Below the pieces are notes generated by a model, which was given only the letters and a program-made list of their open reading frames with translations, made no database searches and was not told where the DNA came from. A DNA stretch of 21,839 nucleotides from Clostridia bacterium (lineage in GTDB: Bacteria; Bacillota; Clostridia; Lachnospirales; WQUN01), in contig BNUF01000031.1 in NCBI GenBank assembly GCA_025997155.1, forward strand, positions 1 through 21,839, written 5' to 3'. A program made the position numbers and the translations under genes. Shown here in pieces: positions 1 through 1,394 of the stretch (positions within the stretch are counted from its first letter, which is position 1; the number at the start of each line of letters is the position of its first letter).

Positions 1-2
1 AA

Positions 3-122
3 ACGACAATGGCCCCCGATGTGCGTTCGCTTTTGCGCGTCGAACTTGAGGACGCGCTTGCCGCCGACGAAATTTTTACAAAACTTATGGGTGATAAAGT
101 CGAGCCGCGACGTGAATTTATT
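3..122 (+). pseudogene. gyrB: GyrB C-terminal fragment, inverted relative to the N-terminal part
   Basis: Read in frame from base 3, this stretch gives 40 residues that match the end of DNA gyrase subunit B: TTM at the start, then [20 protein letters not shown] and [11 protein letters not shown]. These are the conserved last motifs of GyrB. The similarity stops at base 122. The reading frame then runs into the antisense of the N-terminal gyrB piece and stays open by chance to 1361. There is no start of its own (the ATG at 9 is internal), and the last dozen or so GyrB residues are missing. It lies tail-to-tail with the minus-strand gyrB piece, so the two cannot form one protein. An assembly or amplification chimera is the likeliest explanation. 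A real local inversion is less likely. Identification as GyrB is strong. Confidence 0.88.
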
Positions 123-125
123 CTC
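120..125. other. Inversion breakpoint within gyrB
   Basis: Plus-strand GyrB codons run to ATT at 120-122 (Ile of REFI). Minus-strand GyrB codons run to GAG at 125-123 (Glu of FIVE). Neither frame makes GyrB sense beyond the 122|123 boundary, and both switch exactly there. By comparison with the usual GyrB of about 640 residues, roughly 160-170 codons between VEGDSAGG and the TTM motif are missing. The missing piece would be expected just outside the left edge, in antisense order. Confidence 0.85.
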
Positions 126-1394
126 GACAATAAAAATCTCGCAAAGTTCGGGGTCTTTTTCAGAGCAGTCCGCAAGTTTACCGGGCATACGCGCGCCGTC
201 AAGGGCGGATTTTCGGCGTACCAACTCACGCGCCTTTTTTGCCGCCTCTCTCGCGTGGGAGGCGGTCATAGACTTATCTATTATAATTTTGGCAACCGTT
301 GGGTTATCTTCCAAAAAATAGGCGAGTTGTTCCGACACAACGGATTCCACGGCGGTTCTCGCGCAAACGTTGCCAAGTTTTGCCTTTGTCTGCCCCTCGA
401 ACTGCGGGTCGGACAACTTCACGCTTATGACAGCCGTAAGCCCCTCGCGCACGTCCTCGCCCGAAAAAGGCTTGTCGCTTTCTTTAAGCAGATTGTACTT
501 ACGCCCGTAATCGTTAATAGTTTTCGTCATTGCGGAGCGGAAACCAGTGAGGTGCGTCCCGCCTTCGGGCGTTGCGATATTGTTCGCGTAGGAGTGCGTG
601 TTTTCAACGAATCCGTCATTGTACTGAAAAGAAACCTCAACAAGACATTCCTCAAGTTTGGCTTCCGTATAAAAAATCAAGTCGTGTATGGGAGTTTTAT
701 CCTTATTGATATGCGCGACAAACTGGCGTATTCCGCCCTCGTAATGGAAACTTGCGCGGAGATTTGGTTCCGCCCGCATATCGGTAATATTTATTTTAAG
801 CCCTTTTGTCAAGAATGCTGTTTCACGCATATGCCGACGCAAAGTGTCGTAATCGAAAACGGTTTCGTCAAAAATTTCCGCGTCGGGCTTGAAATGAACA
901 AAAGTGCCTGTTTTCTCGGAGGTCTCGCCCACGACTGTGAGCGGTTGCGTGACGTCGCCCCGCGCAAACTTTATCTCATGAATTTTGCCAGCGCGTATGA
1001 TTCGCACATCGGTAAATTCCGAAAGCGCGTTCACAACGGACGCACCCACGCCGTGCAACCCGCCCGAAATCTTGTATCCGCCGCCGCCGAATTTCCCGCC
1101 CGCGTGGAGTACGGTAAAAACGACTTCCACGGCGGGAATACCCATTTGCGCTTGGGTGTCGACAGGGATTCCGCGTCCGTCGTCCCTGACGGACACGGTG
1201 TTGTCCGCGTGAATAGTCACTTCTATTTCGCCGCAGCAACCCGCAAGCGCCTCGTCCACGGCATTGTCAACGATTTCATACACAAGGTGGTGCAATCCGC
1301 GTGCCGACGTACTCCCGATATACATTCCGGGGCGTTTGCGGACTGCCTCCAGTCCTTCTAGGACTTGTATTTGATTGCCGTCGTAATCAGACAT
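123..1394 (-). CDS. gyrB: DNA gyrase subunit B, N-terminal 424 residues only
   Basis: This is the ATPase half of GyrB, which with GyrA introduces negative supercoils. The ATG at 1394 follows AGGTGA at 5 nt spacing. Visible motifs are the GHKL ATP site ([11 protein letters not shown] about 39-49 with Glu40 and Asn44, DDGRGIP at 71-77, GGLHGVGAS at 111-119) and the transducer lysine in QTKAKLG (Lys337). The start of the Toprim domain follows as [18 protein letters not shown], ending at Glu424. All GyrB proteins then continue GDSAGG; here the frame reads NKFTSRL, which is the antisense of the GyrB C-terminus. So most of the Toprim domain, with its metal-binding DxD and GyrA contacts, is absent. 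The gene starts 8 bp after malQ and is probably co-transcribed with it. It is not beside recF or dnaN. Confidence 0.93.

Follow-up and report, generated by a model that had tools for sequence, protein, structure and literature searches.

The window, by which we mean the whole stretch of DNA that was analysed (21,839 nucleotides), is the entire contig C31 of the draft genome (G000:C31:1-21839), and its base 1 is a contig end. The draft, from an uncultured Clostridia-like bacterium, consists of 3.05 Mb in 502 contigs and is 77.1% complete and 2.3% contaminated; contig C1 measures 64,878 nt, C400 1,383 nt and C502 1,002 nt, the latter being the smallest if the numbering follows size. At the left end of the window two pieces of gyrB lie on opposite strands, followed by a malQ-like gene and, from 3963 to 20524, by genes that appear ordinary by Pfam. 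The features are the following:

1..127, plus strand: terminal stretch of 122-127 nt, equal to the terminal overlap of the assembly (k = 127), from the survey of contig ends
3..122, plus strand: inverted tail, whose 40 codons belong to the gyrB C-terminus and end in REFI (PF00986, TIGR01059 and match to the genome G011)
123..127, no strand assigned: junction bases CTCGA, of ambiguous assignment: they complement part of the FIVE codons and are also a possible Leu-Glu continuation of REFI
123..1394, minus strand: gyrB residues 1-424, with the ATPase and transducer domains and the first Toprim residues, to FIVE (translation, TIGR01059 and comparison with G011)
1403..3193, minus strand: malQ-like 4-alpha-glucanotransferase, adjacent to gyrB on its upstream side, the arrangement also found in G011 (55-58% identity to the G011 gene)
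3963-6861: response regulator and histidine kinase (Pfam)
6898-7599: Bax inhibitor family (Pfam)
7630-8814: SpoIIE-type phosphatase with receiver (Pfam)
10099-11934: UvrC (Pfam)
11936-12679: sortase (Pfam)
13508-14263: DapB (Pfam)
14272-15159: DapA (Pfam)
15224-19483: DNA polymerase III alpha, PolC type (Pfam)
19493-20524: GcpE (Pfam)

The identity of the two gyrB pieces was examined by translation, by profile searches and by comparison with GyrB of G011, the nearest genome compared. Translation of the minus strand from 1394 to 123 gave 424 residues ending in CEIFIVE, which matched positions 1-421 of the 639 of the TIGR01059 profile with 620 bits and showed 79% identity to GyrB of G011. This score is below the whole-protein cut-off of TIGR01059 (882 bits) because the rest of GyrB is absent from the piece. 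The 40 residues encoded by plus 3-122 matched positions 23-62 of PF00986 (DNA_gyraseB_C) with 57.4 bits, over a cut-off of 29.8, and positions 588-627 of TIGR01059, while residues 580-626 of the G011 protein matched plus 3-143 at 66% identity in an alignment that passes the junction by 7 residues. Taking into account the profile matches and those to G011, both pieces are therefore GyrB, with their tails meeting at about 122|123. The sequence-only reading, which had described residues 1-424 to FIVE on the minus strand, the C-terminus to REFI on the plus strand and their tail-to-tail meeting at 122|123, is borne out in these points, including the alignment of bases 3-122 to GyrB.

Residues 2-422 and 580-626 of G011 GyrB were matched by the window, and residues 423-579, which hold most of Toprim, were not. 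The unmatched part amounts to 157 codons, slightly fewer than the 160-170 estimated at first. Toprim spans residues 416-527 of the G011 protein, and only its first few residues are kept in the window. The earlier statement that the Toprim core is missing holds for the window; it was overstated for the gene, given that the inverted tail heads back towards Toprim and the contig ends before reaching it. Since the contig stops before Toprim, a deletion of this domain is not established. What the window holds is not a functional gyrB, with all its domains in one frame: PF01751 was not reported for the window piece and the frame is broken at 122|123. Judging by residues 422 and 619 of the relative's protein, the segments joined at the junction would lie approximately 590 nt apart in a normal gene. 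On the plus strand, an open frame of 452 codons (3-1361) begins with the true C-terminus of GyrB and then continues antisense to gyrB.

The bases 123-127 (CTCGA) can be assigned to either piece. They are the complement of part of the codons for FIVE, and they could equally continue the tail beyond REFI with Leu-Glu. Both of the two closest relatives, at loci L004 (G011) and L005 (G005), read REFILEHA, that is, Leu-Glu after REFI, and the remaining relatives shown have residues other than Leu in this position; the comparison took in only loci with the searched C-terminal motif. By analogy with L004 and L005, the organism's own GyrB may continue with Leu-Glu as well. Of the 390 Leu codons in six of the window's ORFs, 72 are CTC; for Glu, GAA is used 186 times and GAG 124 times. 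A microhomology of 3-5 nt at the junction is probable, as far as these comparisons of related proteins go. A programmed invertible segment would call for inverted repeats on its flanks and a recombinase in the vicinity. Three inverted repeats of at least 14 nt were found in positions 1-3000, none of them at the junction, and no recombinase was detected among the 13 window sequences scanned, two of which are the gyrB pieces themselves; the far side of such a segment would fall outside the contig.

The rest of gyrB was then sought in the draft. PF00204 matched C31 and C57, and PF00986 matched C57 and C31:3-122. The C57 protein was considered as a second GyrB and set aside, as it has 34% identity to G011 GyrB over the full length and was read as ParE-like; C168 was likewise discarded as a gyrB copy, with only a weak match to residues 26-80 (E = 0.02). 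The second gyrB that a genuine inversion would imply was consequently not found in the assembly with PF00204, PF00986 or the full G011 GyrB as queries. Neither was a contig carrying the Toprim region, which had been suggested as a check: the middle of the gene, of about 157 codons, gave no match in the assembly with the G011 query. The absence of an intact gyrB means little, because the draft is 77% complete. No other contig among the 40 of 48 candidates scored carried window bases 1-127 or overlapped window 1-400, and the remaining matches were of 30 nt or less. Among the 40 relatives searched, 34 had the gyrB match inside a frame that stays open for 633-693 codons and is free of internal stops.

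The gene neighbourhood was compared over 49 gyrB loci, a count in which one place of G011 appears twice, as L080 and as L035. In 37 of the 46 loci where the sequence downstream of gyrB exceeded 1.2 kb, gyrA followed gyrB on the same strand at a distance of no more than 3 kb; the spacers between the two genes in this range measured 21-850 nt. The order in G011 is malQ-gyrB-gyrA. The malQ-like gene in the window supports a normal gene order up to the junction; malQ was upstream of gyrB in 2 of the 49 loci, both of them the same place of G011. In the draft, gyrA is truncated, as contig C55 opens at its base 1 with residue 167 of the protein, and therefore the assembly breaks around the gyrB-gyrA region. 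The genes that follow gyrA on C55 are unlike those in G011, for which reason C55 can only be proposed as a neighbour of C31.

The contig ends themselves were surveyed in 61 of the 502 contigs (C31 and C34-C93), or 122 ends, with overlaps between two ends counted from each end. Exact matches between an end and another contig numbered 43. None exceeded 127 nt, 34 were 120-127 nt long and 8 were exactly 127 nt; in the control genome G003 the sole overlap found was of 119 nt. The ceiling of 127 nt indicates an assembly with k = 127. The gyrB tail measures 122 nt to REFI, 125 nt if CTC is shared by both pieces and 127 nt if CTCGA is shared. It is about one k-mer long, as expected if the assembly path crosses a chimeric junction and halts at the next node. 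The branching node was not itself seen, since no other contig with bases 1-127 was found among the 40 candidates scored; the partner of this terminal k-mer may lie in sequence outside the contigs compared.

Other ends of the draft are inverted as well. The end of C52 is an exact inverted copy, 127 nt long, of the contig's own bases 10171-10297, 4.4 kb away. The copied source is inside an ORF of 449 codons (9472-10821), presumably an RNA methyltransferase, and the copy adjoins an unrelated gene. Contig C79 (L162) carries in positions 1-10141 two perfect inverted arms of 4,944 nt separated by a spacer of 253 nt, an inverted duplication that is probably a fold-back artefact. Shorter inverted ends were found in C42 (75 nt), C45 (57 nt) and C61 (27 nt), and these may be inverted repeats of natural origin. 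With C79 set aside, 4 of 120 ends had their first 21 bases repeated in inverted orientation on the same contig, versus 31 of 12,000 internal positions drawn at random (p = 0.0004, with positions that are not independent). When the comparison was made with four relatives (G003, G005, G009, and G011), 6 of 122 own ends were inverted versus 1 of 86, a difference that is not significant (p = 0.14). The 86 ends of the relatives included 3 direct copies, and their single inverted case, G005_43, has an inverted end of 108 nt with the source 12 kb away. These counts leave out G005_46, which is all N, and the right ends of stretches that stop short of the contig end (6 in G003 and G005, 8 in G011). No direct copy of the first 21 bases on the same contig was found among the 122 own ends surveyed; C87 has a direct copy beginning 10 bases in from its end. 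Tails landing outside their own contig were searched with 1,661 translated frames from the relatives, read from stop to stop and at least 120 residues long, and only that of C31 was detected, among 10 of the 122 ends that could be judged.

Apart from its arms, C79 holds in positions 1-5275 what we take to be a diversity-generating retroelement. Two tandem genes (1599-2651 and 2693-3817, the second with DUF6273) are accompanied by repeats, which occupy 2429-2633 and 3607-3811. A template-like repeat covers 4125-4329, and at 4676 there is an RVT_1 reverse transcriptase, whose ORF crosses the spacer and enters the inverted arm. Over the final 130 nt of the repeats most mismatches coincide with adenines of the template (16 of 27 and 22 of 33), which is not the case over the whole 205 nt (24 of 73 and 30 of 82).

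We interpret the split gyrB, with a probability of about 0.93, as an artefact at a contig end, namely, a template-switch chimera of the multiple displacement amplification (MDA) type that was fixed by the assembler, and not as a real rearrangement. The sequence-only reading had already pointed to MDA or template switching at the contig edge, and this is supported by the 127-nt ceiling, the other inverted ends with the perfect inverted duplication, the searches of the assembly in which no other gyrB copy or C-terminal piece was found, the break in gyrA and the intact frame in 34 of the 40 relatives searched. In the amplification of the whole genome, most likely by MDA with phi29, a 3′ end being extended within gyrB would have re-primed at some 3-5 matching bases on single-stranded DNA of the opposite strand lying close by, and the beginning of Toprim would in this way have been joined to the C-terminus of gyrB in inverted orientation. 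A de Bruijn assembler with k = 127 would then have taken the chimeric path and halted one k-mer further on, at a branching node, leaving the inverted tail of 122-127 nt. The real gyrB would presumably be intact, with its second half in a gap that was left unassembled between C31 and C55, the contig of gyrA. MDA as the source is inferred from the assembled contigs.

The geometry of the junction can be compared with that of known MDA chimeras. In the study of Lasken and Stockwell (2007; PMC1855051), 406 of 475 MDA chimeras were inverted, the inverted segments tended to be less than 10 kb apart, and at least 2 complementary bases were present at the junction in 93.5% of the inverted chimeras of less than 10 kb. 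In the window the second segment is inverted, the N-terminal part of gyrB being on the minus strand and the C-terminal part on the plus strand. By G011 coordinates, the two segments would be approximately 590 nt apart, within about 10 kb. Where such a chimera would be expected to have 2-21 complementary bases at the junction, CTC or CTCGA would fit both pieces if the gene here reads REFILE, as it does in L004 and L005.

An artificial junction could also come from elsewhere than MDA, as a chimera of library PCR or ligation or as a mistake made by the assembler on its own, the draft being then an ordinary metagenome-assembled genome. Many related records are indeed titled as metagenome-assembled genomes (L035, for example), and a template switch at any step could yield the same tail. 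However, a chimeric path that beats the native one and a perfect inverted duplication of 4.9 kb are better suited to the local over-amplification of MDA, and we regard an origin outside MDA as improbable. A termite-gut single-cell study (PMC9579161) used MDA and SPAdes in single-cell mode with k up to 127, retained contigs above 1 kb and appears to list four Clostridia genomes with 70.2% completeness by one of its two methods; the cut near 1 kb in our draft (C502, 1,002 nt) together with k = 127 fits that pipeline, which we take as a lead only. Still less credible, to the point of being nearly negligible, is a real inversion of the segment from Toprim to REFI in the organism or part of its population, with an intact gyrB elsewhere, in other cells or missing from the draft: a tail that heads back towards Toprim fits a simple inversion and a second gyrB could be missing from a draft only 77% complete, but gyrB is an essential gene, no second copy was found in the assembly, the tail has the length of the assembly's ends (127), similar inverted ends occur elsewhere in it, 34 of 40 relatives carry the gene in an unbroken open frame, and the 13 window sequences scanned held no recombinase.

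As a probable MDA-type artefact, the split gyrB is of little weight as biology, and its worth is as a caution. An annotation might record here a truncated gyrB plus a false ORF of 452 codons (3-1361, plus strand). Apparent inverted artefacts are also present in C52 and C79, and care is accordingly advisable with gene order, with inverted repeats and with truncated genes close to the contig ends of this draft.

With respect to known systems, the gyrB tail differs from the terminal k-mer overlaps of de Bruijn assemblies (SPAdes type, k = 127) in that no partner of it was found among the candidate contigs scored, and it resembles them in its length of 122-127 nt, in an assembly whose exact shared ends do not exceed 127 nt in the 61 contigs surveyed. 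Compared with the inverted chimeras of MDA (PMC1855051), the gyrB join differs in being known from an assembled contig end alone, and it is like them in being an inverted join of near segments with, probably, a few shared bases at the junction.
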